From positions 1-15,447 of the forward strand of contig CAJZGT010000013.1 of the NCBI GenBank assembly GCA_916048145.1: a DNA stretch of 15,447 nt, in the 5' to 3' direction. Made by a program: the position numbers and the translations under genes. Origin of the DNA: an uncultured Streptococcus sp. GTDB lineage: Bacteria; Bacillota; Bacilli; Lactobacillales; Streptococcaceae. The notes under the pieces were generated by a model. It was not told the DNA's origin and made no database searches. It saw only the letters and a list, made by a program, of their open reading frames with translations. Below are positions 1 through 15,447 of this stretch, piece by piece (position 1 is the first letter of the stretch; each line of letters opens with the position of its first letter).

Positions 1-1
1 T

Positions 2-3000: not shown

Positions 3001-4006
3001 TGCTGGTCACATGCGTTTCAACCTTGCCATGTTGTTGTTCTTCAAGTTTTGGTGTTAAGATGGTTGTCCCATTTTTCTCAACATGCACCTTATCTGTCAC
3101 TTGTAAAGTCACATCACGATAGATACCACTTCCTGAATACCAACGACTACTTGGCTGTTTGTTAACTGCATGAACAGCAATTACATTCTCACGACCATCT
3201 TTGTTCAAATAGTTAGTGATATCATATGAAAACTGGTTATAACCATTTGGATAATGGCCTACTAACTGACCGTTGACATAAACTTGAGAATCCATGTAGA
3301 CGCCATCAAAAGTAAGGCGAACATTTTTCTTGAGGTCTTTTTCATCTAGTTTGAAAGTCTTGCGATACCAAGCTTCCCCACCGTTAAGCTGTCCACCTTC
3401 ATTTTGTGCAGGAGATTCATGATCGAAATCGTTAAAGATACTCCAGTCATGCGGTAAATCTAATTTTTTCCACGTAGATACATCTGCATCCGGTTTAATG
3501 GCTTCCTTAGAATTCACATTGAGTTTAAAGTGCCAATTTTGATTAAAATTCACTTTCCTGTCTTCAATCATTTGATTGACTTCTTCATTTGTCACAGCTT
3601 TAACATCTTCCTTGAGCGGTTTTTCTTGACTTGAAGCTTGTGATTCTATCTTTGGAGCTTTTGCTTCTGGTTTAGCAGACACTTTTTCCTCTTTTGGAGT
3701 TACGGCTTCATCTTCTTTCTTCTCAGATGAAATAGACTCAGTTACACTAGGTTGTTTTTGTGCTGTCCTTTCAACTACATTTTTAGTTTCCAAAGCTTGA
3801 TCAACCTTTTCTTCTACTATTGGTTTTTCCTCTTTAGGTTTCTCAGCAGTATGAGTAATAGGTGTTTCATCCGCATAAACTATAGATTCTCCAGCTATAC
3901 TTCCACCTAATAGAACTGCACAAGTCCCAATCATTACTGAGCAAGCTCCCACAGCAAACTTACGAATGCTATAAACTCTTTTCCGATTCCAATGGCCTTT
4001 TCCCAT
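2..4006 (-). CDS. bgaA: Surface beta-galactosidase BgaA (GH2), 3' end beyond window
   Basis: Secreted, cell-wall-anchored exo-beta-galactosidase that removes terminal beta-1,4-linked galactose from host glycans after sialidase action. The window holds the first 1335 codons with no internal stop; the family protein has over 2200 residues, so the carbohydrate-binding modules and LPXTG anchor should lie to the left. The start ATG (4004-4006) follows a strong AAAAGGAGGG ribosome site. The N-terminus carries a YSIRK signal (Y12-K16, then FAVGACSVMIG) with likely cleavage after A45 (VYA/D). Residues about 46-125 are a Glu/Lys/Pro-rich spacer. The GH2 region starts near NFNQNWHFKLN; the acid/base Glu lies in WSIGNEIGE (E564, codon 2315-2317) and the nucleophile in YGSETSS (E645, codon 2072-2074), the positions I recall for pneumococcal BgaA, so there are no net indels up to there. 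Beta-rich Ig-like modules follow. Identity is very secure. Confidence 0.97.
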   Translation of the reverse strand, partial: MGKGHWNRKRVYSIRKFAVGACSVMIGTCAVLLGGSIAGESIVYADETPITHTAEKPKEEKPIVEEKVDQALETKNVVERTAQKQPSVTESISSEKKEDEAVTPKEEKVSAKPEAKAPKIESQASSQEKPLKEDVKAVTNEEVNQMIEDRKVNFNQNWHFKLNVNSKEAIKPDADVSTWKKLDLPHDWSIFNDFDHESPAQNEGGQLNGGEAWYRKTFKLDEKDLKKNVRLTFDGVYMDSQVYVNGQLVGHYPNGYNQFSYDITNYLNKDGRENVIAVHAVNKQPSSRWYSGSGIYRDVTLQVTDKVHVEKNGTTILTPKLEEQQHGKVETHVTSKIVNTDDKDHELVAEYQIVERGGQAVTGLVRTESRTLKAHEVTSLDAILEVERPKLWTVLNDKPALYELVTRVYRDGQLVDAKKDLFGYRYYNWTPNEGFSLNGERIKFHGVSLHHDHGALGAEENYKAEYRRLKQMKEMGVNSIRTTHNPASEQTLQIAAELGLLVQEEAFDTWYGGKKPYDYGRFFEKDATHPEAKKGEKWSDFDLRTMVERGKNNPAIFMWSIGNEIGEANGDPHSLATVKRLVKVIKDVDKTRYVTMGADKFRFGNGSGGHEKIADELDAVGFNYSEDNYKALRSKHPNWLIYGSETSSATRTRGSYYRPERELKHSNGPERHYEQSDYGNDRVGWGKTATASWTFDRDNAGYAGQFIWTGTDYIGEPTPWHNQNHTPVKSSYFGIVDTAGIPKHDFYLYQSQWVSAKKKPMVHLLPHWNWENKELASKVADAEGKIPVRAYSNAASVELFLNGKSLGLKTFNKKQTSDGRTYQEGANANELYLEWKVAYQPGTLEAIARDESGKEIARDKITTAGQPAGVRLIKEDHAIAADGKDLTYIYYEIVDSQGNVVPTANNLVRFQLHGQGQLVGVDNGEQASRERYKAQADGSWIRKAFNGKGVAIVKSTEQAGKFTLTAHSDLLKSSQVTVFTGKKEGQEKTVLGTEVARVRTLIGKEPKMPKTVGFVYSDGSREKLPVTWSQVDISQAGVVTVKGTANGREVEARVEVLAIAKELPTVKRVAPGADLNTVDKYVSILVTDGSVQEYEVDSWEIAEVDKAKLSVAGSRIQMTGQLAGETIHATLVVEEGKAAAPVVPTVTVGGEVVTGLTSQQPMQYRTLAYGAQLPEVTASAENADVTVLQASAANGMRASIFVQSKDGGPLQTYAIQFLEEAPKIAHLSLQVEQADSLKEDQTVKLSVRAHYQDGTQAVLPADKVTFSTSGEGEVAVRKGMLELHKPGALTLKAEYEGATGQINLTIQANTEKKIAQSIRPVNVVTDLHQEPTLPS

Positions 4007-4020
4007 AAAACCCTCCTTTT

Positions 4021-4035
4021 AGTAATCGCTTTCAT
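4021..4035 (-). promoter_or_regulatory. cre (CcpA operator) in bgaA leader
   Basis: Read on the minus strand, ATGAAAGCGATTACT matches all fixed positions of the Gram-positive cre consensus WTGNAANCGNWNNCW. It ends just before the bgaA ribosome site and lies about 30-45 bases after the predicted transcription start. In that position bound CcpA would act as a roadblock, giving glucose repression of bgaA. The match is seen directly; the regulation is inferred. Confidence 0.72.
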
Positions 4036-4039
4036 TTTT

Positions 4040-4054
4040 ATGTAAGCGCATAAC
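4040..4054 (+). promoter_or_regulatory. Second, weaker cre-like site in bgaA leader
   Basis: On the plus strand ATGTAAGCGCATAAC fits 13 of 15 cre consensus positions; the conserved C and W near the 3' end are missing. It sits 4 bases from the better site and faces it. It may be an auxiliary CcpA site or a chance half-match. Confidence 0.35.
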
Positions 4055-4071
4055 TTTTAATAGTCTTTTTT

Positions 4072-4100
4072 ATTTTATAAAATAATATAAGAATTTTCAA
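4072..4100 (-). promoter_or_regulatory. Predicted bgaA promoter
   Basis: On the minus strand TTGAAA (4095-4100) and TAAAAT (4072-4077) are separated by exactly 17 bases, in very AT-rich DNA. Transcription would start near 4065, giving a leader of about 60 bases that contains the cre site(s). The 240 bases between bgaA and the SDR gene hold only this promoter, the cre-like sites and the SDR terminator; I see no gene there. Confidence 0.55.
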
Positions 4101-4214
4101 TACTTTAAACATATAAAATAATATTTTTGATTGTTTTTTCTAAAATTTATGAAATAATAAAAAAACTGAATGTAGTTTTAAAATAAAAAATGCTCATTAA
4201 CATTTAAATTAAAA

Positions 4215-4243
4215 GAATTAAAAAGTCCCTTTAAAAGGAACTT
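4215..4243 (-). terminator. Intrinsic terminator of the miaA-SDR operon
   Basis: Four bases after the SDR stop codon, the minus strand folds into a hairpin (4223-4243, about 8 bp including one G-T pair, arms AAGTTCC and GGGACTT extended by T-A pairs) followed by a short T run. This closes the operon and separates it from bgaA, which lies downstream in the same direction. Confidence 0.7.
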
Positions 4244-4246
4244 CTT

Positions 4247-5002
4247 CTACTTATAATTAAAAGTCTCCCCTGCCAACTTATCAGCTAGCTTAGGAAAGAG
4301 AGTATAAAACTTATGGGCTAAGTTCAACAAAACAGGAAGATTAAGTTCTCGTTTGTTTTTTCCTATAATCTTGACAATCTTTTTAGCCACTGCATCTGGT
4401 TCTAGCAGGAAACGTTCAACCGATTTGAGATAGGTGCCATCTGGGTCGGCTTGGTCGAAAAATCCTGTTCGGATTGGTCCTGGATTGACTGTTGTCACAT
4501 AGACTCCATATGACATAAGTTCGAGGCGCAGAGCATTTGAAAAACCAATAGCCGCAAACTTAGTGGCTGAGTAGAGACTAGACTTGCCAGTAGCAATCAA
4601 ACCTGCCATGCTAACGATATTGATGATATGACCTTGCCTCTTCTCCTTCATACGAGCCGCAAGGCGACGAGACAGATTCATCAAAGCAAAGGTATTGACC
4701 TCGAACATCTGATGAATATCTTGGTCAGAAATCTGGTCAAATTCCTCAAAAATCCCGTAACCAGCGTTGTTTATCAAGACATCAATCTTGCCATAGCGGA
4801 GATAAAGGTCTGCTACCAGAGATTCTAAGGCTGAATCATCGGTAATATCGATTTCAATCCATTCTGCATGGGAATGATTTCCGTATAGTTGGGCTAATTT
4901 TTCCTTATTTCTACCAAGCAAGATGACTTGGTCATTTGGCAAGAGTTTGACCATTTCTTGGGCTAGGCCACCGCTAGCTCCGGTAATGAGAATAGTAGGC
5001 AT
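4247..5002 (-). CDS. Short-chain dehydrogenase/reductase (SDR) family oxidoreductase
   Basis: A 251-residue classical SDR enzyme, NAD(P)-dependent; the substrate cannot be told from sequence. The Rossmann nucleotide-binding motif is TGASGGLA (residues 7-14), the structural NNAG motif is at 78-81, and the catalytic tetrad is N103 (in FEVN), S131 (NIVSMAG), Y144 and K148 (YSATK). NPGPIRTGFF near residue 174 is the usual cofactor-contact loop. The last 50 residues are basic and hydrophobic and may help substrate specificity or membrane contact. Length is typical. The ATG follows the rnz stop by 20 bases and has a GGAAAGGA ribosome site. It is the last gene of the miaA operon and is followed by a terminator. 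Family assignment is firm, function open. Confidence 0.93.
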   Translation of the reverse strand: MPTILITGASGGLAQEMVKLLPNDQVILLGRNKEKLAQLYGNHSHAEWIEIDITDDSALESLVADLYLRYGKIDVLINNAGYGIFEEFDQISDQDIHQMFEVNTFALMNLSRRLAARMKEKRQGHIINIVSMAGLIATGKSSLYSATKFAAIGFSNALRLELMSYGVYVTTVNPGPIRTGFFDQADPDGTYLKSVERFLLEPDAVAKKIVKIIGKNKRELNLPVLLNLAHKFYTLFPKLADKLAGETFNYK

Positions 5003-5022
5003 ACTTATCCTTTCCCAATCTT

Positions 5023-5952
5023 TTAGATTTCCACTTCTTCCAAGTCTTTGACCACATGGACATTTTCAAAAATGCTAGCAGCATCTTTCTTGAGCTTGCT
5101 GATATCTTTTGAGAGGAAACGAGCACTGATATGGTTAAGCAAGAGGCGTTTAGCACCTGCTTCTACTGCCACCTGCGCTGCCTGCATGTTAGTAGAGTGA
5201 CCATGATTGCGAGCAATTGTTTCATCGCCCTTGCCATAAGTGGACTCATGAACTAGGACATCAGCATTGACAGCCAGACGCACACTGGCATTGGTTTTGC
5301 GGGTATCACCCAGAATGGTGATTATCTTACCTGGACGTGGAGCTGAGATATAGTCTGCTGCCTTGATTTTAGTTCCATCTTCTAAAACAACGTCCTGACC
5401 GTTTTTGATTTTTCCAAAAAGTGGGCCAAATGGGACGCCAGCAGCCTTAAGCTTTTCAGCATCCAAGGTACCTTCTAGGTCCTTTTGCATGACACGATAG
5501 CCAACACAGAAAATAGTGTGGTCCAACTCCCCTGCATACACAATGAATTTATCGGTCTCAAGGATTTTCCCAAGGGAATCTTGGTCAAACTCATGGAAAT
5601 GAATGCGGTAGGGCAGACGAGAACCTGACACACGAAGGCTGGTTAATACAAAGGACTTGATTCCTTGCGGTCCATAGATTTCCAAATCTGTCTGCTCTTC
5701 ATTGGCCTGAAAGGCTCGGCTAGAAAGGAAACCTGGTAAGCCAAAAATGTGGTCTCCATGCAGGTGGGTGATAAAGATTTTGCTGACCTTTCGTGGTCTA
5801 ATTGTGGTCTCAAGAATGCGATTTTGCGTTCCTTCTCCACAGTCAAAGAGCCAAACTTCGTTAATCTCATCCAAGAGTTTCAGGGCGAGACTTGAAACGT
5901 TGCGGGCTTTAGAGGGCTGACCAGCCCCCGTTCCTAAAAATTGAATATCCAT
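5023..5952 (-). CDS. rnz: Ribonuclease Z (tRNA 3'-end endonuclease)
   Basis: A 309-residue zinc-dependent metallo-beta-lactamase-fold endonuclease that cuts the 3' trailer from tRNA precursors lacking an encoded CCA. Full length for the short bacterial form. The zinc-binding motif HLHGDH lies at residues 63-68 (H63, H65, D67, H68); further ligands are expected in NHGHSTN, in the Asp of ILGDTRK and in the His of [10 protein letters not shown] near the C-terminus. [10 protein letters not shown] at the N-terminus is the usual RNase Z opening. The start lies 14 bases after the preceding gene, with a weak AGAAAG site, so translational coupling is likely. Sharing an operon with miaA groups two tRNA-processing enzymes. 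Confidence 0.96.
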
Positions 5953-5966
5953 TCGATACTTTCTAA

Positions 5967-6590
5967 TTAATCAATATATAACATGGCTGTGCGGTTTTCC
6001 GATCGGAAATAGCGCTTGCCAGAAAAAGCAGCAGCTTCTTGCAGTAAATCCTCTTGACTATAACCTTTTAGACGCTTACGACCATCAGCCAAGCTTTCCA
6101 AATCAGTCAAAGCTGTAAGACTTTCCACACTAACAACTTCCTCGTCCCCGGCAGACTTCATATAAATCTTATCAGACTCCTCAAAGACTAGTTGATGAGG
6201 AAAAATTTGCGCAATTTCAAAGAGCAAGTCTTCTGAAATAACCTCTTTATTTTCAGAGAAAATTCTACCCAGACCCTCACTCTCATAACAAAAACCAAAG
6301 GATTTACCAGACAGATTAAGACGAATAAAAGGCTTATTTTCTAGAGTGAAACTTGGCTCAGTATTGTAAAGATTCAGTTCCTGACTGAGTTCCGCAAAAT
6401 AATCCGTCGCTGCTTCAGGACTCTTTTTCTGGTAGAGTTCTGCAAAGTAAGCATTGACCACGCTGGGCGGAGGTGTGATCAGTGCCAACTGCTCCTGCTC
6501 TGTCTTGCCAGTTAGAAGCTGATCCAGATAGACCTTGTCCAGACTTGTATAGCCCCCATATTTTAGAGCCAAGGTTTTAATATCAGTCAT
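5967..6590 (-). CDS. Uncharacterised 207-residue streptococcal protein
   Basis: I recognise this as a conserved member of the streptococcal miaA-hflX-rnz cluster but cannot name a function. It is soluble in appearance: no signal peptide, no membrane segment, and an acidic composition with many Glu residues. A hydrophobic beta-like stretch around [19 protein letters not shown] lies mid-protein, and the C-terminus is more basic ([18 protein letters not shown]). No catalytic motif is obvious. Its ATG overlaps the hflX stop codon by 8 bases, and its ribosome site (GAGGAA) lies inside the hflX coding end, so it is very probably translated by coupling with hflX. Reality of the gene is secure because of this packing; function unknown. 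Confidence 0.85.
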
Positions 6591-7821
6591 AAAATTCCTC
6601 TAACCTCCATTTATTTTTCTCGGAAATGTAGCCTGTAATAACTTCCCCATCATCTTGATAATCGCGTTCTTCCAGAATCGCAACACTTTCTAAATCATGA
6701 ATCTTGTAGGATTTTGAAAAAGACACGCGTAGGGTAAATCTCTCAAAAATCTCCTTGATTTTCTCTAAAAACAAAGTCTGCAAATTTTCACGACTATCCT
6801 CAGACTTGGCAGAAATGAGGGCATAAGGCGTTTGGGTCGGCGTGAAATCCTCCACCAAATCCGCTTTATTATAAAGAGTCAGGCGAGGAATATCCTCCAT
6901 ATCCAAGTCTTTCATGATGGAAAGGACCGTTTTTTCATGCTCTTCGTGGTAAGGATTGCTGGCATCGATAACATGAACCAGAAGGTCTACATGCTTGCTT
7001 TCTTCCAAGGTTGACTTAAAACTGGACACCAATTCAGTCGGCAAATCTTGGATAAAGCCAACGGTATCAGTCAAAGTTACTTGGAGATTGCCTCCCAGAT
7101 GGATACTCTTAGTCGTCGCATCTAGAGTCGCAAATAGCTCGTCAGCCTCATACTGAGTCTTACTGGTCAAGGTGTTCATGATAGTTGATTTCCCAGCATT
7201 GGTGTAACCAATCAAACCAATCTTAAAGGTGCTGGACTCCAAACGTTTTTCTCTGACAGTCGCCCGATTTTTCTCAACCACCTTGAGCTGGCGCTCGATA
7301 TCTGTGATTTGGTTGCGAACGCTACGACGGTTCAACTCCAGCTGGCTTTCACCAGGTCCACGGGATCCTATTCCCCCTGCCTGACGGCTGAGCATAATCC
7401 CCTGACCAATCAAGCGAGGCAAGAGATATTTTAACTGGGCCAAATGCACTTGGAGCTTTCCTTCATGGCTTCTAGCCCGCATGGCAAAGATATCCAAAAT
7501 CAACTGCATACGGTCAATGACCTTAACACCCAGAACTTCTTCTAAATTGACATTTTGCCTTGGAGTCAAGCGGTTGTTGACAATGACAGTAGTAATTTCT
7601 TCTGCATCCACCATAAGCGCAATTTCTTCTAACTTACCAGAACCGACGAAGGTCTTGGAGTCATACTTTTCACGTTTTTGTCTGTAGCTATCGACAACGA
7701 CTGCCCCTGCCGTTTTCGCTAAACTAGCCAATTCTTCCATGGAAAGGTCAAAATTATCCATGCCCTGCAATTCCACACCAATCAGCAGAACTCGCTCCTC
7801 TTTTTTCTCCGTTTCAATCAT
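6583..7821 (-). CDS. hflX: GTPase HflX (ribosome-splitting/rescue factor)
   Basis: A 412-residue GTPase of the Obg-HflX superfamily. Family members bind the 50S subunit and split stalled or stress-inactivated ribosomes. The N-terminal HflX domain spans about residues 1-195, including the glycine-rich RGPGESQLE segment (154-162) and a coiled helical stretch to about 195. The G domain follows: G1 GYTNAGKST (205-213), G3 DTVGF (252-256), G4 NKAD (318-321), G5 SAK (337-339). The C-terminus is acidic. Its ATG overlaps the miaA stop codon by 8 bases, with a GAGGAG ribosome site within miaA. It overlaps the next gene in the same manner, so miaA, hflX and the 207-residue gene form one coupled unit. 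Confidence 0.96.
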
Positions 7822-8698
7822 CTAAAAACTCCTCTATCTGGCTTAAAATGCGGGCTTGCACACCAGATTCTCCGATTTGATAAAAGGTGACCTGCATGCG
7901 ATTACGGAACCAGGTCAACTGACGCTTGGCAAAACGACGGGTTGCTTGTTTGAGGCTCTCGCTAGCTTCTTCCAGGGTCTGCTCGCCACGAAAATACGGA
8001 AAGAGTTCCTTATATCCAATTCCTTTAGCAGCCTGCACATCAGGGTAATGAACAAAAAGCCACTTAGCCTCATCCAAAAGCCCAGCCTCAAACATCAGAT
8101 CCACGCGGCGGTTAATGCGCTCGTAAAGTTGACTACGTCCATCATCCAAGCAGATAATCAATGGTTCATACAAGGTCTCTTGATTTTTCAAATCCTGACC
8201 AAAATGGGCAATTTCCAAGGCACGCATAGCACGACGATGATTAAACTGGGGAATCTCAAGGCCCGCTTGCTCCACCAGATGGGCTAATTCCTCATCTGTA
8301 TAAGGCTCCAAACTAGCCCGATAGGCCAAAATCTCCTCATGAGGTGTCTCCCCACCTAAATGGTAACCTTCTAGCAAGCTCTGTATATAAAGTCCAGTCC
8401 CACCAGCGATAATGGCTAGCTTACCACGACTGTGAATATCTTCAATAGCCATCTTAGCTTCTGAAACAAAATCAAAAGCCGAGTAAGACTCGGTTACCTC
8501 TCTAACATCGATTAAATGATGGGGAACAGCTGCCTGCTCTTCTGGACTAGCCTTGGCCGTCCCAATATCAAGTCCTCGATAGACTTGCTGACTATCTCCA
8601 CTAACCACTTCGCCATTAAAACGCTTGGCCACTTCAATGGCAAGGGCTGTCTTTCCAACAGCAGTCGGTCCAACAATCACAATTATTTTTGTTTTCAT
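7814..8698 (-). CDS. miaA: tRNA dimethylallyltransferase MiaA
   Basis: Transfers a dimethylallyl group from DMAPP to N6 of A37 in tRNAs that read UNN codons, the first step to ms2i6A. I place the start at ATG 8696-8698, giving 294 residues; a longer reading frame begins upstream at 8749, but that stretch contains the predicted promoter and has no family similarity, whereas AAGGAAA precedes the chosen start. Motifs: P-loop GPTAVGKT (10-17), [17 protein letters not shown] with the catalytic Asp, [26 protein letters not shown] and the C-terminal KRQLTWFRN. First gene of the operon that continues with hflX. Confidence 0.96.
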
Positions 8699-8707
8699 CT
8701 TTTTTCC

Positions 8708-8736
8708 TTGAAAAATTCCCATTTTTTCGTTACTAT
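8708..8736 (+). promoter_or_regulatory. Predicted promoter of the DUF3042 gene
   Basis: On the plus strand TTGAAA (8708-8713) and TACTAT (8731-8736) are 17 bases apart. Transcription would start near 8743 and give a leader of about 75 bases. The -35 box lies in the miaA leader, and the -10 box is next to the oppositely oriented miaA -10 box. Confidence 0.45.
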
Positions 8737-8737
8737 T

Positions 8738-8746
8738 ATTATAACA
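8738..8746 (-). promoter_or_regulatory. Predicted miaA operon promoter (extended -10)
   Basis: On the minus strand TGTTATAAT is a perfect extended -10 box (TGn plus TATAAT). No good -35 lies upstream, which extended -10 promoters tolerate. Transcription would begin near 8731, about 33 bases before the miaA start. It overlaps the promoter of the divergent small gene. Confidence 0.65.
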
Positions 8747-8754
8747 CAAAAAGG

Positions 8755-8793
8755 TCAGTCAGAAAAATGTGACCTCTTGAGGAGGCTGGCTGA
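8755..8793 (+). promoter_or_regulatory. Stem-loop in the DUF3042 gene leader
   Basis: TCAGTCAG (8755-8762) pairs with CTGGCTGA (8786-8793) over 8 positions with one G-T pair. An inner hairpin CCTC/GAGG (8773-8776 with 8782-8785) stacks directly on the outer stem. There is no T run, so it is not a terminator. The ribosome site (8804-8811) starts 10 bases later and stays unpaired. Role unknown; could stabilise the mRNA. Confidence 0.35.
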
Positions 8794-8818
8794 TTGAGAA
8801 TATAAAGGAGGAAGACTC

Positions 8819-8989
8819 ATGGCTAAAGGATTCGCTAAAGGTCTTGTAACAGGTGTCGCAGGAACTGTCGCTGCCGTCGCAGGTGCAGTATACGCATTTA
8901 AAAAGAAAGTAATCGAACCAGAAGAGCAAAAAGCAGCTTTCATCGAAGAAAACCGTAAAAAAGCAGCTCGTCGCCGCGTATCACGTTAA
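8819..8989 (+). CDS. Small DUF3042-family protein (56 residues)
   Basis: The only plus-strand gene of the window. The 56-residue product begins MAKGFAKGLVTG, continues with one hydrophobic segment (about residues 9-27, alternating Val/Ala/Gly), then KKKVIEPEEQKAA, and ends with the very basic ENRKKAARRRVSR. This layout (short hydrophobic helix, VIEP motif, ENRKKAARR tail) is that of the DUF3042 family of Firmicutes, whose function is unknown. It is probably a small membrane-anchored protein with a charged cytoplasmic tail. A near-perfect AAAGGAGG ribosome site stands 7 bases before the ATG, suggesting strong translation. It has its own terminator and is divergent from miaA and convergent with thyA. 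Confidence 0.92.
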   Translation: MAKGFAKGLVTGVAGTVAAVAGAVYAFKKKVIEPEEQKAAFIEENRKKAARRRVSR

Positions 8990-8997
8990 GAAATAAA

Positions 8998-9030
8998 AGA
9001 AGTTGGGATTATTCTCAACTTCTTTTTTCT
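8998..9030. terminator. Bidirectional intrinsic terminator between DUF3042 gene and thyA
   Basis: A 10-bp stem (AGAAGTTGGG with CTCAACTTCT, one G-T pair) with a 6-base loop is followed by a T-rich tail on the plus strand. On the minus strand the same hairpin is followed by TTTTATTT, so it can also end transcripts coming from thyA through the BOX element. Confidence 0.85.
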
Positions 9031-9038
9031 ATTCTTTT

Positions 9039-9176
9039 ATACTCTAAGAAACTAGCCGTAGTCTGCTCAAAGCACTGCTTTGAGGTTGTAGATAAGACTG
9101 ACGAAGTCAGCTCAATACACTGTTTTGAGGTTGTGGATGGAAGCTGACATGGTTTGAAGAGATTTTCGAAGAGTAT
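9039..9176. repeat. BOX element, shortened, at the thyA 3' end
   Basis: Known pneumococcal BOX repeats run from ATACTC(TTCGAAAATCTC) to a closing GAGTAT and carry boxB units with nested hairpins. Here the plus strand shows ATACTC at 9039-9044, CTAGCCGTAG, two boxB-like units starting near 9065 and 9110 (each with CTCAA...TTTGAGGTTGT), CTGACGAAGTCAG, and the boxA end (GGTTTGAAGAGATTTTCGAAG, then GAGTAT at 9171-9176). Total 138 bases. Parts of boxA and boxC that I recall from full-length elements are missing. The boxA end abuts the thyA stop codon exactly. Confidence 0.88.
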
Positions 9177-10015
9177 TAAATAGCTAGGTCAAACTTCAAC
9201 TGTGGCTTGACAGGGTCATAATCCACCAACTCAAAGTCTTCTGCTTTAATATCAAAGAAATTAGTCCCATCTGGCACATTCAAAACCAAACGTGGTTGGC
9301 AGTTTGACGGATCCCGACGAAGCAATTCCTGAGCTTGTTCAAATTGATTGTCATAGATATGGAGGTTGTTGATAAAGTAGAAGAACTTTCCAACCTTCCA
9401 GCCAAAATGTTTGGCAATCATCATTTGAAGAGCCACATACTGCATAGCATTGATATGGTGGGCCACCAGCATATCATTGGAGCGTTGCGTCAAGGTCGCA
9501 TCCAGATAGATTTCTCCATCAACACGACGTACATCAAACATAGTCTGAAAGGCGCATGGAAGCAACCCATCTGTCTCTTCGAAAGCTTGGTAATCCCAGA
9601 GCGAAATGATATTGCGGCGGTTCCAAGGGTTGGCTTCCAACTGTTTGAGAAGCTTATTGATAATGTCGTGTTTCTTAACAACGGCACCATAGCGCTCACC
9701 GATGGTTCCTGTATTTTCCACTTCCCAGTCATTCCAGTAGTGAACATTGTACTTGTCATTGAGCACTTCTAGGCTATTAGACTGGTCTTGGTAGATCCAA
9801 AGCACTTCTTTGATAGCGGATTTGATAGCGATAGGGCGCAAGGTTGTGATAGGAAATTCCCCTTTTGCCAAGTCATACTCTGCAAAGGCACCCGTTACGT
9901 ACTTAGAGTTGGCAACTGTCCCATCCTTGTACTTAGGACGAGCCTGCTCTGAAAAGACACCGTCTTTGAGGATTCGTTCAATATTTTCTTTAAAAATCGT
10001 ATCTGCTTTTGTCAT
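9176..10015 (-). CDS. thyA: Thymidylate synthase ThyA
   Basis: Converts dUMP to dTMP using methylene-tetrahydrofolate. At 279 residues it is the usual streptococcal length. The catalytic cysteine is C154 in LLPCAFQ, preceded by the phosphate-binding RR pair (133-134) and followed by TQRSNDM, the dUMP-binding region, and HIYDNQ near residue 220. The C-terminus QLKFDLAI fits the family. The ATG follows a GAGGTGA ribosome site. The gene has its own extended -10 promoter and lies downstream of the glk terminator, so it is probably a single-gene unit. The stop codon TAA supplies the first base of the BOX element that follows. Confidence 0.97.
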
Positions 10016-10043
10016 TTCGTTTCACCTCATTTATTTCCTAACT

Positions 10044-10052
10044 AGTATAGCA
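10044..10052 (-). promoter_or_regulatory. Predicted thyA promoter (extended -10)
   Basis: The minus strand reads TGCTATACT, an extended -10 box (TGn TATACT), about 30 bases before the thyA ATG. No convincing -35 lies 16-18 bases upstream, where the glk terminator sits. Confidence 0.55.
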
Positions 10053-10053
10053 T

Positions 10054-10105
10054 AAAAAAGAAAAGAGGAACATTACTAACTCTAGGTTAGCATTTTTCCT
10101 CTTTT
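10054..10105 (-). terminator. Intrinsic terminator of glk
   Basis: Six bases after the glk stop codon, the arms AAAAGAGGAA and TTCCTCTTTT (10061-10070 and 10096-10105) pair perfectly over 10 bases. An inner helix GCTAAC/GTTAGT lies within, and a T-rich tract follows on the minus strand. A strong, long hairpin; it could also stop plus-strand transcription. Confidence 0.88.
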
Positions 10106-10111
10106 ATTATT

Positions 10112-11071
10112 TTATTGCAATACAAGTGATGCTGCTCCGATAACTCCAGCGTCATTTCCTAGAGTTGCAAGAGCCAATTTAGTAGATGTACGTACTTGCG
10201 GGAAGCTATTTTCGTCGTAGACTTTTTGAACACCTTGTAAAAGGAATTCCCCTGCAGCTGATACACCACCACCGATGACGATTGTTGATGGGTTGAGGAT
10301 TGAACCGATGTTGGCACAAGCAATACCCAAGTAACGTGAGAAGTTACGGTAAACGATTAAGGCAAGGTCGTCTCCCTCTTTTGCAAGGTCAAAGACAGTC
10401 TTAGCAGTTACTTCTTCTCCGTTATCAATCAAACGTTTCAAGGCTGCATCGCCTTCGTATTCATCAGCATAGCGACGAGTCAAGTTGACAATACCTGTTG
10501 CTGAAGCAACTGTCTCAAGGCAACCTTTCTTACCGCAAGTACATGCGATTGGTTGGTCAAAGTCAACAGTGATGTGGCCAAGCTCACCTGCTGCACCAGC
10601 AACACCATGAAGCAATTTGCCTTCTGCGACGATACCGCCACCAACACCAGTACCGAGTGTCATAAAGACAACATCTGGTTGGTTATCTCCAGCACCCATC
10701 CAACGTTCACCAAGAGCTGCTACGTTAGCATCATTATCGATGAAGAATGGAATACCCAAGGCTTTTTCAATCTTTTCTTTAATTGGTTGAAGGGTTTTCC
10801 AGTTGAGGTTGTAGGCGCCGATAACAGTTCCTTTTTCACGGTCAACCACACCTGGTGATCCCATTCCAATACCTTGGAAGTCTGCTGCTGCCAATCCAAG
10901 CAAGTCCAAACGATGTTGAATAGACTCAATCATATCATCAACGATATGACTTCCCTCATCCAAAATGTTGGTCTTGATAGACCATTTTTCTTGGATTTCT
11001 CCTGCTGTTGTCAAGATTGCAAATTTGATAGAAGTTCCACCAAGGTCAATCCCAATAATCTTTTGACTCAT
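10112..11071 (-). CDS. glk: Glucokinase, ROK family
   Basis: Phosphorylates free intracellular glucose to glucose 6-phosphate with ATP. I choose ATG 11069-11071, giving 319 residues; an upstream in-frame ATG at 11089 would place the AAGGAG ribosome site inside the coding sequence, and the middle ATG leaves it only 3 bases away. Motifs: phosphate-binding DLGGTSIK (9-16), catalytic D114 in FIDNDANVA, TLGTGVGGG (138-146), the ROK signature with E163 and H166 (GELGH), and the zinc cluster CTCGKKGC with C177, C179 and C184. Free glucose from extracellular glycan breakdown would be a substrate. Own promoter and terminator. Confidence 0.96.
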   Translation of the reverse strand: MSQKIIGIDLGGTSIKFAILTTAGEIQEKWSIKTNILDEGSHIVDDMIESIQHRLDLLGLAAADFQGIGMGSPGVVDREKGTVIGAYNLNWKTLQPIKEKIEKALGIPFFIDNDANVAALGERWMGAGDNQPDVVFMTLGTGVGGGIVAEGKLLHGVAGAAGELGHITVDFDQPIACTCGKKGCLETVASATGIVNLTRRYADEYEGDAALKRLIDNGEEVTAKTVFDLAKEGDDLALIVYRNFSRYLGIACANIGSILNPSTIVIGGGVSAAGEFLLQGVQKVYDENSFPQVRTSTKLALATLGNDAGVIGAASLVLQ

Positions 11072-11119
11072 CATATTCTCCTTTTTCATTATGAATTAAC
11101 TGAAAATGCTTACAGATAT

Positions 11120-11148
11120 AGTATAACAAAATTTAGTTAATCATGCAA
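11120..11148 (-). promoter_or_regulatory. Predicted glk promoter
   Basis: On the minus strand TTGCAT (11143-11148) and TATACT (11120-11125) are separated by 17 bases, and TGT precedes the -10 box to make it extended. Transcription would start around 11113, giving a leader of about 40 bases. Confidence 0.65.
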
Positions 11149-11196
11149 AGGTTTGCGTGAATGAATTATAAGGAATTTTTCGCCTACTAGTATCTG

Positions 11197-11216
11197 TTAA
11201 TCATCTAAATGATTAA
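11197..11216 (-). other. Palindrome overlapping the choline-binding protein stop codon
   Basis: A perfect 8-bp stem (TTAATCAT / ATGATTAA) with a 4-base loop includes the stop codon. No T run follows on either strand, so it is a poor terminator; it could be a weak pause or mRNA 3' end stabiliser. No better terminator is visible before the glk promoter. Confidence 0.3.
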
Positions 11217-12570
11217 TTGCATAATTAGCTTCTTCTTCTGTAAAGCCATCTATATAAGAGGTCAATTGATTGAAAAGACCAGATTTAGACATATTAAATA
11301 ATTTTCTATAGTTCTTAGCATTAAATAACGCATTATATTTATAATCGGCTTCTAAATGATCAATGGCATATTGAGCTGCATCATTTGAAAATTTATCAAA
11401 TTCAGAAGTTAATTGTCTATACATACGTTTTTTTGACATATGGAATAGCGAGTTATAAGTCTTTGCCTTTTCTAAAGCAGTAGAATATTCACTATTGGTT
11501 GATGCTTTGGTTTCCCATAATCCATTAGATCCTACATAGTAACGACCTCCATCAACCCATTCACTCTTAGCCATCTTACCGTTTGATTTGAGGTAGTAAT
11601 TTCCTACCCAAGTATTACGAGCGTAGCTACCTTCGGATGTTAGATAGTAATATGAACCATAGTTCTTATCGTAAATCCACTCACTTTTAGCCATCTTACC
11701 ATTTGACTTCAAATAATAATTGCCTGACCACGCATTGCGAGCATAGCTACCTTCTGATGTTAGATAGTAGTATGAACCATAATTCTTATCATAAATCCAC
11801 TCACCTTTGGCCATCTTACCATTTGATTTAAGGTAGTAATTACCCACCCAAGTATTACGAGCGTAGCTGCCTTCGGATGTTAGATAGTAGTATGAACCAT
11901 GGTTCTTATCATAAATCCACTCACTTTTAGCCATGTATCCGCCTGATTTGAGATAGTAGTTATCTACCCAAGCGTTTTGAACATAATTTCCTGATGCATC
12001 TAGATAGAAGAATGAATTATATTTTTTATCAAAAATCCACTTACTAGTGACTTTTTTACCATCTTGATAATAGGATGAACCTAACCAACCAGACTGAACT
12101 GTAGGTTTTGGTGTTGGCTTCTCATCTGGTTTTGGTGTTGGCTTTGGTTTTTCATCCGGTTTTGGTGTTGGCTTTTCATCCTTTTTTGGAGTTGAAGTAG
12201 TTGATTTTTTATCAGTCAGCTTCTTAATGGCCTCTTTAAACTCTTCTACTGTTCCTTTCCACTCTATGTAATTGGCACCAGACTTATTCTCATTAGCTAT
12301 ATAGTTACGATCGGATTCTTGGAAATAAGATAATTCTGGAGTAGTTTTTGTAGCCCCAATAATAGGAATATTAACAGTTCCCTTCCATCTATTAAATATT
12401 TCTGCATCATTCGGAAGAATAATATAATATTTTGCCGTTGGGGTAAGAGTTTGTGTGTCAGCCTGCACCGTTTGCGCTGAAAGAGGTAGAACTCCTGTTG
12501 TGTCAATTGTTGACAATACTCCAACTGTTGAAAGTGCCAAAGCACATACTAATAATCTTTTTTTATTCAT
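11197..12570 (-). CDS. Choline-binding surface protein with two C-terminal Ltp repeats
   Basis: 457 residues. Signal peptide 1-37 (cleavage after VQA). Residues about 46-120 form a domain I do not recognise, in which WKGTV occurs twice (62-66, 104-108). A Lys/Pro-rich linker (about 127-158) repeats KPDEKPTP. Residues 161-353 hold about ten choline-binding repeats of the WIYDKNYGSYYYL / WVGNYYLKSNGKMA type, which bind phosphocholine on teichoic acid and hold the protein on the cell wall. The C-terminus has two Ltp (Lipoprotein_Ltp, PF07553) repeats, at 361-406 and 408-455, each with a MSK...QLTS...A.YAI.HL pattern. Ltp repeats block phage DNA entry in the TP-J34 lipoprotein and also end pneumococcal CbpL. 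The start is 33 bases after the upstream cbp gene with only a weak AGGTAA site, so cotranscription is likely. Exclusion function is inference. Confidence 0.9.
   Translation of the reverse strand: MNKKRLLVCALALSTVGVLSTIDTTGVLPLSAQTVQADTQTLTPTAKYYIILPNDAEIFNRWKGTVNIPIIGATKTTPELSYFQESDRNYIANENKSGANYIEWKGTVEEFKEAIKKLTDKKSTTSTPKKDEKPTPKPDEKPKPTPKPDEKPTPKPTVQSGWLGSSYYQDGKKVTSKWIFDKKYNSFFYLDASGNYVQNAWVDNYYLKSGGYMAKSEWIYDKNHGSYYYLTSEGSYARNTWVGNYYLKSNGKMAKGEWIYDKNYGSYYYLTSEGSYARNAWSGNYYLKSNGKMAKSEWIYDKNYGSYYYLTSEGSYARNTWVGNYYLKSNGKMAKSEWVDGGRYYVGSNGLWETKASTNSEYSTALEKAKTYNSLFHMSKKRMYRQLTSEFDKFSNDAAQYAIDHLEADYKYNALFNAKNYRKLFNMSKSGLFNQLTSYIDGFTEEEANYAINHLDD
11512..12090 (-). repeat. Choline-binding repeat array of the Ltp protein (120-bp period)
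   Basis: The DNA repeats with an exact 120-base period: the GCCATCTTACC-type anchor recurs at 11571, 11691, 11811 and, diverged, at 11931. Each 120-base unit codes two choline-binding repeats of 22 and 18 residues. Units differ at only a few bases. Confidence 0.9.
12104..12181 (-). repeat. Tandem repeat coding the Pro-rich linker
   Basis: Three direct repeats of 24, 30 and 24 bases, each beginning GGTTTTGGTGTTGGCTT on the plus strand, code TPKPDEKP-like peptides. All lengths are multiples of three, so copy change would alter linker length without breaking the frame. Confidence 0.85.
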
Positions 12571-12603
12571 CTGATATTACCTATTATCCTATTTTTTAGT
12601 TTC

Positions 12604-13413
12604 TTATTTAACCCATTTACCTGAACCATCTACACGATAACCATCTGGTGTACGTTCATTGATAGCCATTTTTCCATTTGATTTAAGGTAGTAATTGCCT
12701 ACCCAAGTGTTACGAGCGTAACTTCCTTCTGCTGTCAAGTAGTAGTATGATTTGTAGTTACTATCGTATATCCACTCACCTTTAGCCATCTTACCATCTG
12801 ATTTGAGATAATAATTACCTGACCAAGTGTTACGAGCGTAGCTGCCTTCTGATGTCAAGTAGTAGTATGATTTATAGCTACTATCATACACCCACTCACC
12901 TTTAGCCATCTTACCATTTGATTTAAGGTAGTAAGACCCTTGCCAAGCATTGCGAGCATAAAAACCATCTGATTTCAAATAATACCAAGCTTGATAGGAA
13001 GAATCATAAATCCATTCGTCCTGTGCCATTTTACCATCTGATTTCAAATAATAGTTTCCCTGCCATGCATTTTTCACTGGATTTCCATTTTCATCAAAAT
13101 AGTACCAAGCGCCATCCTGCTCAAACCAACCACTTGTTGTTGCTGAACTTGTGTTAGTTTGAGCCACCGTTGATTGTTTTGCTTTGAAAGCACCCTTAGG
13201 AGCATTTTTCAATTCGCAAGCTACACCATCATGGTCTCGGTCTAACTTGGCAGAATATCCCGGTTCTCCCTCGTGAATATCCGAGTATCCATTCGCCCAA
13301 GCTTCCTTACAGCTAGAAAAATGAATGTTTTCTTCTGCTAACACAGGTTTTGAAAACAAGGCTAAAATTGGCAAGGTAGCGAGACTCATTTTTAAAAATA
13401 AACGTTTGTTCAT
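12604..13413 (-). CDS. cbpL: Excalibur-domain choline-binding protein, CbpL-like but lacking the Ltp domain
   Basis: 269 residues. Signal peptide 1-26 (cleavage after VLA). Residues 31-67 form an Excalibur domain: C35 and C66, with the calcium-type loop D58-x-D60-x-D62-G63-x-x-C66-E67. A short Ser/Thr linker follows, then about eight choline-binding repeats and a divergent last one (94-269), ending TPDGYRVDGSGKWVK. The N-terminal half is what I recall for pneumococcal CbpL, a surface protein with Excalibur, choline-binding and Ltp parts; here the Ltp part is absent and appears in the next gene instead. The symbol is therefore given for the N-terminal match only. Ribosome site GGGAGAAAG before the ATG. 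Likely first gene of a two-gene cbp unit. Confidence 0.9.
   Translation of the reverse strand: MNKRLFLKMSLATLPILALFSKPVLAEENIHFSSCKEAWANGYSDIHEGEPGYSAKLDRDHDGVACELKNAPKGAFKAKQSTVAQTNTSSATTSGWFEQDGAWYYFDENGNPVKNAWQGNYYLKSDGKMAQDEWIYDSSYQAWYYLKSDGFYARNAWQGSYYLKSNGKMAKGEWVYDSSYKSYYYLTSEGSYARNTWSGNYYLKSDGKMAKGEWIYDSNYKSYYYLTAEGSYARNTWVGNYYLKSNGKMAINERTPDGYRVDGSGKWVK
12607..13134 (-). repeat. Choline-binding repeat array of the Excalibur protein (120-bp period)
   Basis: Anchor GCCAT..TTACCAT.TG recurs every 120 bases (near 12665, 12785, 12905 and 13025). The array is in the same orientation and codon phase as the one in the downstream cbp gene. For example 12892-12934 and 11797-11839 agree at 42 of 43 bases. 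Confidence 0.9.
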
Positions 13414-13430
13414 TTCTTTCTCCCATAATT

Positions 13431-13460
13431 ATGATATCGTTTTCAATATTATTTTATCAA
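13431..13460 (-). promoter_or_regulatory. Possible promoter of the cbp pair
   Basis: On the minus strand TTGATA (13455-13460) and TATCAT (13431-13436) are 18 bases apart, directly after the hydrolase stop codon. The transcript would have a leader of only about 15 bases. Read-through from the hydrolase gene is equally possible, as no terminator intervenes. Confidence 0.4.
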
Positions 13461-13462
13461 AC

Positions 13463-14080
13463 TTACTTCAGCAATTCAAGAAAACTTCTAGTTATTGCTG
13501 CAAACTCTTTTGGTTTGGCTCTATTCAAGACATGAGGACCGTCAGGGATAATCTGGAACTGGGAATTTGGCATCAGTTCTTGAATAGCTTTCATTGAACT
13601 GAGATTAGGCTTATCTTGACTACCACAAATTAACAAAGTTGGATAGGGACAATTCTTTGCAATCTCTCTTAAATCAAGTGTTTTTAATTCCTCAGAAACT
13701 CCAACCAAAAGCGATTTATCTGCTCCCTGTTTCTCAAATGTCCTTTTGGGGAGTAGTTTAAATATCAGCAACTGAATGTAAAAAGGGATATTGCCAGCTA
13801 GTTTCAATGGACAGCCTGACAAAACCAAGACCTGAAGATTTGGCAAATCGTAACTTGACAGCTCTAATGCAAGTACAGCTCCTAAGGACAAACCGATTAG
13901 GGCAAAAGGTTCTGTCTCCTCTGACAAGTGCTGATAAATGCGCTCCTTAGCTTCTTGATAGGTAGCAACTCCGGAAGGAAATAACTCTAGGGCTTCAGAA
14001 GGATAATCTACAAGCAACTCTTGCACTTCTTTCCAACTATCTGCTGACTGACCTAGGCCATGTAAAAATATTAATTTCAT
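13463..14080 (-). CDS. Alpha/beta hydrolase family protein
   Basis: 205 residues with the alpha/beta hydrolase fold: oxyanion-hole HGLGQ (7-11), nucleophile elbow GLSLG with S65, acid D156 in GSQDKPN and H183 in DGPHVLN, a complete Ser-Asp-His triad. No signal peptide, so cytoplasmic; the substrate is not evident. A hydrophobic lid-like segment (about 97-110, IPFYIQLLIFKLL) lies between elbow and Asp. Its ATG directly follows the stop codon of the pabB-type gene, whose last codons contain the AAGGGAG ribosome site, so the two are translationally coupled. That hints at, but does not prove, a link to folate/aminobenzoate metabolism. Confidence 0.88.
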   Translation of the reverse strand: MKLIFLHGLGQSADSWKEVQELLVDYPSEALELFPSGVATYQEAKERIYQHLSEETEPFALIGLSLGAVLALELSSYDLPNLQVLVLSGCPLKLAGNIPFYIQLLIFKLLPKRTFEKQGADKSLLVGVSEELKTLDLREIAKNCPYPTLLICGSQDKPNLSSMKAIQELMPNSQFQIIPDGPHVLNRAKPKEFAAITRSFLELLK

Positions 14081-15447
14081 TTAGTTCTCCCTTACTGACA
14101 GCTCATACAAGCCCCTGACTGCATTACAGCCATAGATAGCTTCTGCTTGGGCAAAATCTGCCAAGGTCAAGACTTTCTCTTCTATCTGTCCTGTTTCCAG
14201 CAAATGCTGACGGTAAATGCCTGGTAAGATTCCAAGTCGGACTGGCGGTGTATAGAGTTTCCCATCGATTTTCAGAACCAAATTTCCGATAGAGGTTTCA
14301 AGAAGTTCTCCAGACTTATTGTGGTAAATGATCTCTTGCTCCCCTAGGTTCAAATGCGGTCGGTGAGTCGTTTTGAAGTAGGTAAAAGCTTGTTGCAAAT
14401 TGGCTTCCTGAAGGCAGAGTTGGGCCTGACAAAAGCTTGTACTAAGGGGTGTTAATACTTGGCGATCGACTTCTATCTCTCCAGACTTGCTGAGAGAAAT
14501 TCGCAAGCGGTAATCTTGATTAGCATCACAAGCCTGACACTCTGCTTCAATCTTTTGTCTCAAAATTTCTGGGTCAAAAGGAAAAGCAAAATACCGACTA
14601 GCTGTTCTCAATCTTTCCAAATGCTGATCTTCAAACAACAAGTTCTTCTGGCTGATTTTTCCAGTTGTAATTAATTGGAAGCGAGCTTGTTTACGATAGA
14701 GAACTGCTGCCTTTTGATGAACTTCACGGTATTCAGATTCCCATGTGCTATCCCATGTAATGCCTCCGCCTACTCCATAGATAGCTTGCCCCTTGTAGAG
14801 TTGAATGGTCCGAATAGCAACATTAAAAATCCGTCGTCCATTTGGAAGCAAGAGACCAATGGTTCCACAGTAGACTCCACGCGGTTGTGGTTCCAAGTTC
14901 TTTATAATCTCCATAGTCGCAATTTTCGGAGCTCCCGTTATGGAACCACAAGGAAAGAGAGAGCGAAAGATTTCAACAAGGTCAACATCCTCTCGCAACT
15001 GACTCTTGATGGTCGAAGTCATCTGCCAGACAGTTGAATACTGCTCCACTTGACACAAACGCTCCACATGCTCACTTCCCACTTCAGAAATACGGTTCAT
15101 ATCGTTGCGCAAGAGGTCCACAATCATCATATTTTCAGAGCGATTTTTGGGATCCTGTTCCAACCAACTGGCCTGCTCCAAGTCTTCTTGGTCAGTCATG
15201 CCACGCTGAGTCGTTCCCTTCATTGGTCGCGTTGTCAACTCACGGTCATTTTGCTCAAAAAAGAGCTCTGGGCTCATGGAAATCACTGCCATCTCATCAT
15301 GTTCAACATAGGCATTGTAACCCGCCTCCTGCTCTACCACCATACGATTGTAAATGGCAAAAGGATTGACACTCAAATCTTGCTTGAGTTGGACAGTGTA
15401 ATTTACCTGGTAGGTGTCCCCCTGACGCAAATGATGGTGAATCTGGG
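14081..15447 (-). CDS. pabB: Aminodeoxychorismate synthase component I fused to a PabC-like lyase domain, 5' end beyond window
   Basis: Makes 4-amino-4-deoxychorismate from chorismate for folate synthesis; the fused C-terminal class-IV aminotransferase-like domain probably performs the lyase step to p-aminobenzoate. About 455 codons are present; the frame runs open through the right edge, and the codon before RQGDTYQVNYT is an internal TTG, not a start. The chorismate-binding part shows RPMKGTTQRG, whose Lys (codon 15218-15220) marks PabB rather than TrpE, then SENMMIVDLLRND, GSITGAPK and YGVGGGITWDS. The PabC-like part starts near LITTGKI and includes HLERL, YHNKSGELLETS and a conserved GILPGIYR. 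Coupled to the downstream hydrolase. The glutaminase partner PabA is not in the window. Confidence 0.93.
   Translation of the reverse strand, partial: QIHHHLRQGDTYQVNYTVQLKQDLSVNPFAIYNRMVVEQEAGYNAYVEHDEMAVISMSPELFFEQNDRELTTRPMKGTTQRGMTDQEDLEQASWLEQDPKNRSENMMIVDLLRNDMNRISEVGSEHVERLCQVEQYSTVWQMTSTIKSQLREDVDLVEIFRSLFPCGSITGAPKIATMEIIKNLEPQPRGVYCGTIGLLLPNGRRIFNVAIRTIQLYKGQAIYGVGGGITWDSTWESEYREVHQKAAVLYRKQARFQLITTGKISQKNLLFEDQHLERLRTASRYFAFPFDPEILRQKIEAECQACDANQDYRLRISLSKSGEIEVDRQVLTPLSTSFCQAQLCLQEANLQQAFTYFKTTHRPHLNLGEQEIIYHNKSGELLETSIGNLVLKIDGKLYTPPVRLGILPGIYRQHLLETGQIEEKVLTLADFAQAEAIYGCNAVRGLYELSVREN

Follow-up and report, generated by a model that had tools for sequence, protein, structure and literature searches.

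The window analysed here, a 15,447-nucleotide stretch from an uncultured Streptococcus sp. (contig CAJZGT010000013.1, positions 1 to 15,447), looks like a chromosome segment of a Mitis-group streptococcus; of the genomes searched, the nearest has 30% of sampled words in common with it. On its minus strand lies a gene, called here gene A, the product of which joins a choline-binding array to C-terminal tandem Ltp repeats, known from the superinfection exclusion protein of phage TP-J34. This raises the question of what such a module does on a choline-binding protein: does it block the entry of phage, as the initial annotation proposed, or has it been taken over for another binding task? On balance, we lean towards the explanation that the gene A protein is a wall protein of the CbpL type, docked on choline and carrying a domesticated Ltp module.

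The identity of the modules is well supported. Searched with the whole gene A protein, PF07553 is found in two stretches, the best being residues 361-406, with a score far above the cut-off (E 5.2e-36; 123 bits against 23.2). Both repeats fall within residues 361-457 (positions 11490-11200, minus strand), where the initial annotation had placed them, and they are 48% identical to each other over 48 residues. PHROG 4980 (superinfection exclusion) covers residues 354-456 (E 7.3e-37). In the PDB, the repeat pair matches 4eqq, the Ltp of TP-J34 (E 1.4e-19; Bebeacua 2013, as cited in PMC5137146 and PMC3952083); the TP-J34 Ltp fold is kept. The choline-binding array predicted ahead of the repeats is recognized by PF19085 in five stretches (E 1.2e-39), and the top PDB match of residues 175-353 is 4cnl, a "putative pneumococcal surface protein" (E 8.8e-71). 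With such E-values for PF07553, PHROG 4980, 4eqq, PF19085 and 4cnl, a chance match is excluded. Inspection of the N-terminus reveals no lipobox cysteine, and the proposal that Ltp repeats sit here on a choline anchor and not on a lipid anchor is borne out by PF07553 and PF19085 together with this absence. Close relatives of gene A (P0001, P0079, P0083) bear the database name "Ltp family lipoprotein [Streptococcus mitis]".

An Ltp domain on a choline anchor is already in print as CbpL, and the combination is not new. CbpL (SP_0667/spr0583 in S. pneumoniae; PMC2911433) begins with an Excalibur domain, continues with a choline-binding module (CBM) and ends in an Ltp domain of 48 residues; it is choline-anchored and is no lipoprotein, and the study describing it itself compares the Ltp domain with the superinfection exclusion of TP-J34 (PMC5137146). 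Like CbpL, gene A has a choline-binding module of CbpL type, ends in a PF07553 domain, lacks a lipobox and lies between pabB/hydrolase-like genes and glucokinase. It differs from CbpL by two repeats instead of one, a different N-terminus, a Pro-rich linker and an Excalibur domain encoded by a separate gene, gene B, which has the architecture of the N-terminal half of CbpL. Because PF05901 is found only in gene B, gene A is classed as encoding a CBM-Ltp protein of a cbpL-type locus and not CbpL itself. The gene order around pneumococcal cbpL agrees with that of locus L056; the hydrolase-like neighbour in the window would presumably correspond to SP_0666. TP-J34 Ltp shares PF07553 repeats and the Ltp fold with gene A; it is, however, a lipoprotein, is more acidic and is encoded between repressor-type genes and an integrase. 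In the literature searched, which consisted mostly of papers accessible without subscription, choline-linked Ltps with two repeats were not found to be described. The features of the window are collected in the table.

Features of gene A and its surroundings in the window (positions in nucleotides; aa, amino acids; ORF, open reading frame)
Feature	Positions	Strand	Basis or remark
Gene A, encoding a choline-binding protein of 457 aa that ends in tandem Ltp repeats	11197..12570	-	ORF; Pfam PF19085 + PF07553
Signal peptide of gene A, ~residues 1-38	12457..12570	-	Judged by eye; secretion presumed
N-terminal module of gene A, ~residues 39-125, family-less	12196..12456	-	No Pfam match above cut-off
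Lys/Pro-rich linker of gene A, ~residues 126-160	12091..12195	-	Sequence
Choline-binding module of gene A, ~residues 161-353	11512..12090	-	PF19085/PF19127; PDB 4cnl
Ltp repeat 1, residues 361-406	11353..11490	-	Best PF07553 stretch
Ltp repeat 2, residues 407-457	11200..11352	-	
Stop codon of gene A	11197-11199	-	
Gap between genes B and A, 33 bp	12571..12603	-	ORF coordinates
Gene B, encoding a protein of 269 aa with Excalibur and choline-binding modules	12604..13413	-	PF05901 E 6.7e-16 at 32-67; PF19085 E 1.1e-37
Glucokinase-type flanking gene	10112..11089	-	95-100% identity in 19/97 genomes searched; name assumed
Alpha/beta-hydrolase-like flanking gene	13463-14080	-	ORF; gene order in relatives; name assumed
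pabB-like flanking gene	14081-15430	-	ORF; gene order in relatives; name assumed

How one-repeat and two-repeat forms are related can be followed at the DNA level. In L056 (genome G158), repeat 2 has gone through a clean in-frame deletion of 147 bp between similar repeat ends, both flanks being alignable; this locus has the published module order of CbpL, in two overlapping frames. Four short proteins whose source names include S. pneumoniae (P0167, P0169, P0170, P0176) stop after one repeat, and their alignment, with 86-90% identity, takes in half of the query with two repeats. P0040, a partial record also labelled S. pneumoniae, has the plan of gene A and enters a second repeat before it ends, which speaks against a strict species rule for repeat number. 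As a whole, gene A is somewhat better explained than not as a tandem-repeat variant of Ltp-tailed choline-binding proteins, of which pneumococcal CbpL is the described member.

The initial annotation spoke of a core locus. The chromosomal slot stands: the flanks of gene A are of housekeeping type and chromosomal on both sides, hydrolase-like and pabB-like on one and glucokinase-like on the other, and the setting is not that of a phage or prophage. The content of the slot, however, varies. Among 20 glucokinase-anchored loci, taken for the highest-identity glucokinases (one of them, G047, being a partial match), an Ltp protein is present in six (L054, L056-L059, L061), an Excalibur-CBM protein without Ltp in eight (L053, L055, L060, L062, L063, L065, L069, L071) and neither in the remaining six (L064, L066, L067, L068, L070, L072). 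Since neither pabB nor hydrolase was found in the stretch in five of the latter, the neighbourhood is different there. In L068, pabB, hydrolase and glucokinase follow one another; a search of the space between them revealed no choline-binding protein, and the slot is apparently empty. The Excalibur-CBM proteins of the slot (for instance L053, L062) are like gene B and have no Ltp gene beside them.

Thirteen further loci were chosen for holding Ltp and stand outside these counts. Such Ltp-selected loci include X-CBM-Ltp2 (L073, L076) and Excalibur-CBM-Ltp2 (L074, L075) arrangements. In CBM-Ltp2-CBM-Ltp2 proteins (for instance L077 and L080, and L059 from the 20 loci above), locus and Ltp clade are those of gene A; these proteins differ from it by two Ltp pairs per protein, by a basic charge (+3 to +6 in these three) and in that no Excalibur domain was found in them. 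Two tandem CBM-Ltp genes lie between pabB and glucokinase in L081 and L082, the former also having an Excalibur-CBM gene. Very long Pro/Lys repeats were observed in L081. Interrupted genes also occur at the slot in three relatives, namely Excalibur-CBM-Ltp in L061 (4265-5551) and L056 (1153-2162), and CBM-Ltp in L005 (4965-6218).

With S. pseudopneumoniae L001, gene A shares 97-99% identity across its Ltp end and the 3' flank. The N-terminal module has no Pfam match above cut-off over residues ~39-125, and its predicted structure is poor (predicted local distance difference test score, pLDDT, 52); at the DNA level it is 96% identical to L003, an NTD-CBM (N-terminal domain-CBM) gene of S. shenyangsis, and 86-87% identical to L006-L008. 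Further choline-binding proteins also carry this module (L002-L004, L006-L008), and all five slot markers are missing from their loci. The slot looks like a site of module exchange. That Excalibur lies on a gene of its own upstream, and that gene A shares its N-terminus with another choline-binding protein, suggests that modules were exchanged here through recombination among choline-binding repeats, which would explain how the CbpL plan came to be split over two genes.

The relation of gene A to phage Ltp was studied with a tree of 62 sequences over 100 columns, sampled by similarity, reduced to 90% non-redundancy and rooted at midpoint. Ltp fragments with fewer than 85 of the 100 residues, duplicates and sequences more than 90% identical were dropped, as were three uncertain ones, P0124, P0132 and P0133 (charges +1, -1 and 0), the last two carrying choline-repeat ends. 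Sequences were labelled free or choline-linked by motif matching and reading of the loci. The choline-linked ones (19/62), gene A included, form one clade (100/100); the others are of phage, prophage or lipoprotein type. The median net charge is +4 (-2 to +7) for choline-linked and -6 (-13 to +2) for free Ltps, with a rank test value of 2e-9 that is overstated because the choline-linked sequences are one clade and the shift amounts to about one evolutionary event. It is chiefly at positions such as 33, 84 and 88 that the two groups differ, and there the pair in the window is still acidic. Positions 24 and 66 of the fragment are Lys in 19/19 choline-linked sequences and average near zero in free Ltps; as the latter are not generally acidic at either position, the fixed Lys residues were dropped as evidence of a charge change. 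In TP-J34 Ltp, acidic net charge has been tied to contact with the tape-measure protein (PMC3952083). The charge trend, as read from these alignments, would therefore argue mildly, and for the window only weakly, against an unchanged TP-J34 mechanism or contact.

The initial annotation proposed that the repeats, held on teichoic-acid choline, block injection at the site that some pneumophages need for adsorption; as considered here, such a blocker would act by binding a protein of the phage tail or the tape-measure protein. The shared fold is consistent with this. The premise that some pneumophages need choline agrees with published work on Dp-1 and Cp-1 (PMC4652380; for Dp-1, also PMC4334900). 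Moreover, Ltp expressed free of the lipid anchor is active against additional phages (PMC3952083), so that phage blocking by a form with no lipid is conceivable in principle. Kinship with phage Ltps also counts in favour. Of nine phage loci opened, eight have a gene of integrase or regulator type close to that for Ltp: an annotated integrase adjoins it in five, four of which also have a regulator-type gene nearby, one has a regulator and a downstream gene with an integrase motif, and two have a repressor or regulator with no integrase in the stretch. The ninth has neither. The CBM-Ltp2 arrays of relatives resemble a dosage effect, and the pair in the window keeps an acidic residue at 8 of the 16 acidic positions of TP-J34 Ltp. 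However, the choline-linked clade as a group has lost the acidic net charge, the pneumococcal-type protein has one repeat only, and the published phenotypes of CbpL are host binding and virulence. The absence of any match in the PADLOC defence library also counts against a phage blocker. In the literature searched, again mostly outside subscription papers, no phage assay of CbpL was found.

If Ltp had been retuned for the phages of choline-bearing hosts, their tape-measure proteins could be expected to be less positive. A choline host was defined by at least three LicD matches, a threshold that we set. The comparison, of tape-measure C-termini from prophages and phages, used 57 of the 85 listed matches (17 from choline hosts, 40 from others) and six named phages; G097 (ambiguous host), a second G226 copy, a match of 520 residues from G217 and 25 of those from other hosts were left out, and 20 of the 63 sequences (9 choline, 11 other) were then removed as redundant at 70%. 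Over the last 300 residues the median charge is +0.5 in choline hosts (n=12) and +5 in others (n=31; p 0.005). The p-value is 0.03 for the last 200 residues and 0.012 for the last 400. The difference is nevertheless absent from the last 100 (p 0.15), is not seen for the whole protein (p 0.12) and vanishes once the remaining charge of each protein is subtracted (p 0.47). Taken together, we consider a phage-entry blocker possible but doubtful. A fuller scenario, in which the Mitis group domesticated an exclusion module once, changed its anchor from lipid to choline, multiplied it and recharged it for the tails of choline phages, yielding a chromosomal wall-anchored entry blocker, seems less probable still.

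Published infection data on CbpL concern virulence and phagocytosis, cbpL mutants being attenuated and more phagocytosed (PMC5137146), and CbpL was found to bind elastin, collagen and C-reactive protein (CRP) in enzyme-linked immunosorbent assays (PMC2911433). By analogy, it can be proposed that the repeats form an adhesin or immune-evasion module with a host protein, such as elastin, collagen or CRP, as partner, which would be a special case of the explanation that we favour. It should, however, be noted that these ligands were found with CbpL as a whole, that the CbpL of PMC5137146 has a single Ltp repeat and that the slot often holds an Excalibur-CBM gene and no Ltp (8/20). A host-protein partner is regarded as a tentative proposal, about on a par with phage blocking.

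It may also be asked whether the tail does anything. Acquired once and then carried along by recombination, it could be a passive relic; half of it has been lost in pneumococcal-type L056, and the Ltp genes of L061 and L005 are interrupted. However, comparison of the Ltp region of the window with the genomes of four close relatives (synonymous divergence, dS, up to 0.25) gives ratios of nonsynonymous to synonymous divergence (dN/dS) of 0.15-0.20. In more distant comparisons dS is saturated (>1.6) or, in three, not computable; four other pairs of relatives give 0.14, 0.17, 0.30 and 0.60. The tail is thus mostly constrained, its fold is conserved and it is amplified in relatives, which makes a functionless relic very improbable.

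For a domesticated module on a CbpL-type protein, the following scheme can be proposed. The gene A protein would be secreted, and its choline-binding repeats would dock it non-covalently on the phosphocholine of teichoic acids, so that a compact six-helix Ltp module would be displayed in the wall. Judging by the tree of sampled sequences, this module would share one origin with the Ltp lipoproteins of temperate phages; during domestication the fold would have been retained, the sequence kept mostly under purifying selection, and the net charge of the clade shifted from acidic to neutral or basic. In this scheme, anchor domain, fold, locus, single clade, charge trend and selection were computed; we infer secretion, anchoring in the source strain, direction of descent, binding and the existence of a partner. 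That the tail, displayed in the wall, now serves mainly to bind a protein, and one that differs from the TP-J34-type contact, has in our estimate an even chance.

Several observations weigh against this explanation. The +4 median is driven by array-type proteins, and the 125 long choline-linked relatives retrieved with gene A only span -3 to +4. The pair in the window is slightly acidic (-2, isoelectric point (pI) 5.9; TP-J34 Ltp, -4, pI 4.9) and, as said, retains half of the TP-J34 acidic positions. Identities inside the choline-binding repeats are blurred by repeat exchange, the dN/dS of 0.60 stands out in one pair, and the host-ligand data concern whole pneumococcal CbpL and neither the Ltp domain nor gene A.

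Should the Ltp tail still stop phage, a surface protein so far discussed for its part in pneumococcal virulence would double as a phage defence at the entry step, located on the polymer that serves as phage receptor. Otherwise, the locus would show plainly how a phage exclusion module can be domesticated to bind something else. In both cases, the form with two repeats would be a better test protein than the published one-repeat CbpL. To what was known of CbpL, the present analysis adds the 147-bp repeat loss and the array forms, the split Excalibur gene with the shared N-terminus, the one-clade charge trend and the slot counts over 20 loci.

On the minus strand, the ORF list and the gene order of relatives give the succession pabB-like, hydrolase-like, gene B, gene A, glucokinase, thyA, miaA and others; glucokinase, thyA, miaA, pabB and alpha/beta-hydrolase are names that we take to apply to these flanking genes. 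No terminator-like site was found in 11050-13520, and genes B and A are probably transcribed jointly. Over 75 bp, the gap between them and the end of gene B match L081 with 98.7% identity. At the other end of the window, a partial ORF (2-4006) running off the edge resembles a surface beta-galactosidase of what we take to be the BgaA type, with a signal presumably of the YSIRK kind.
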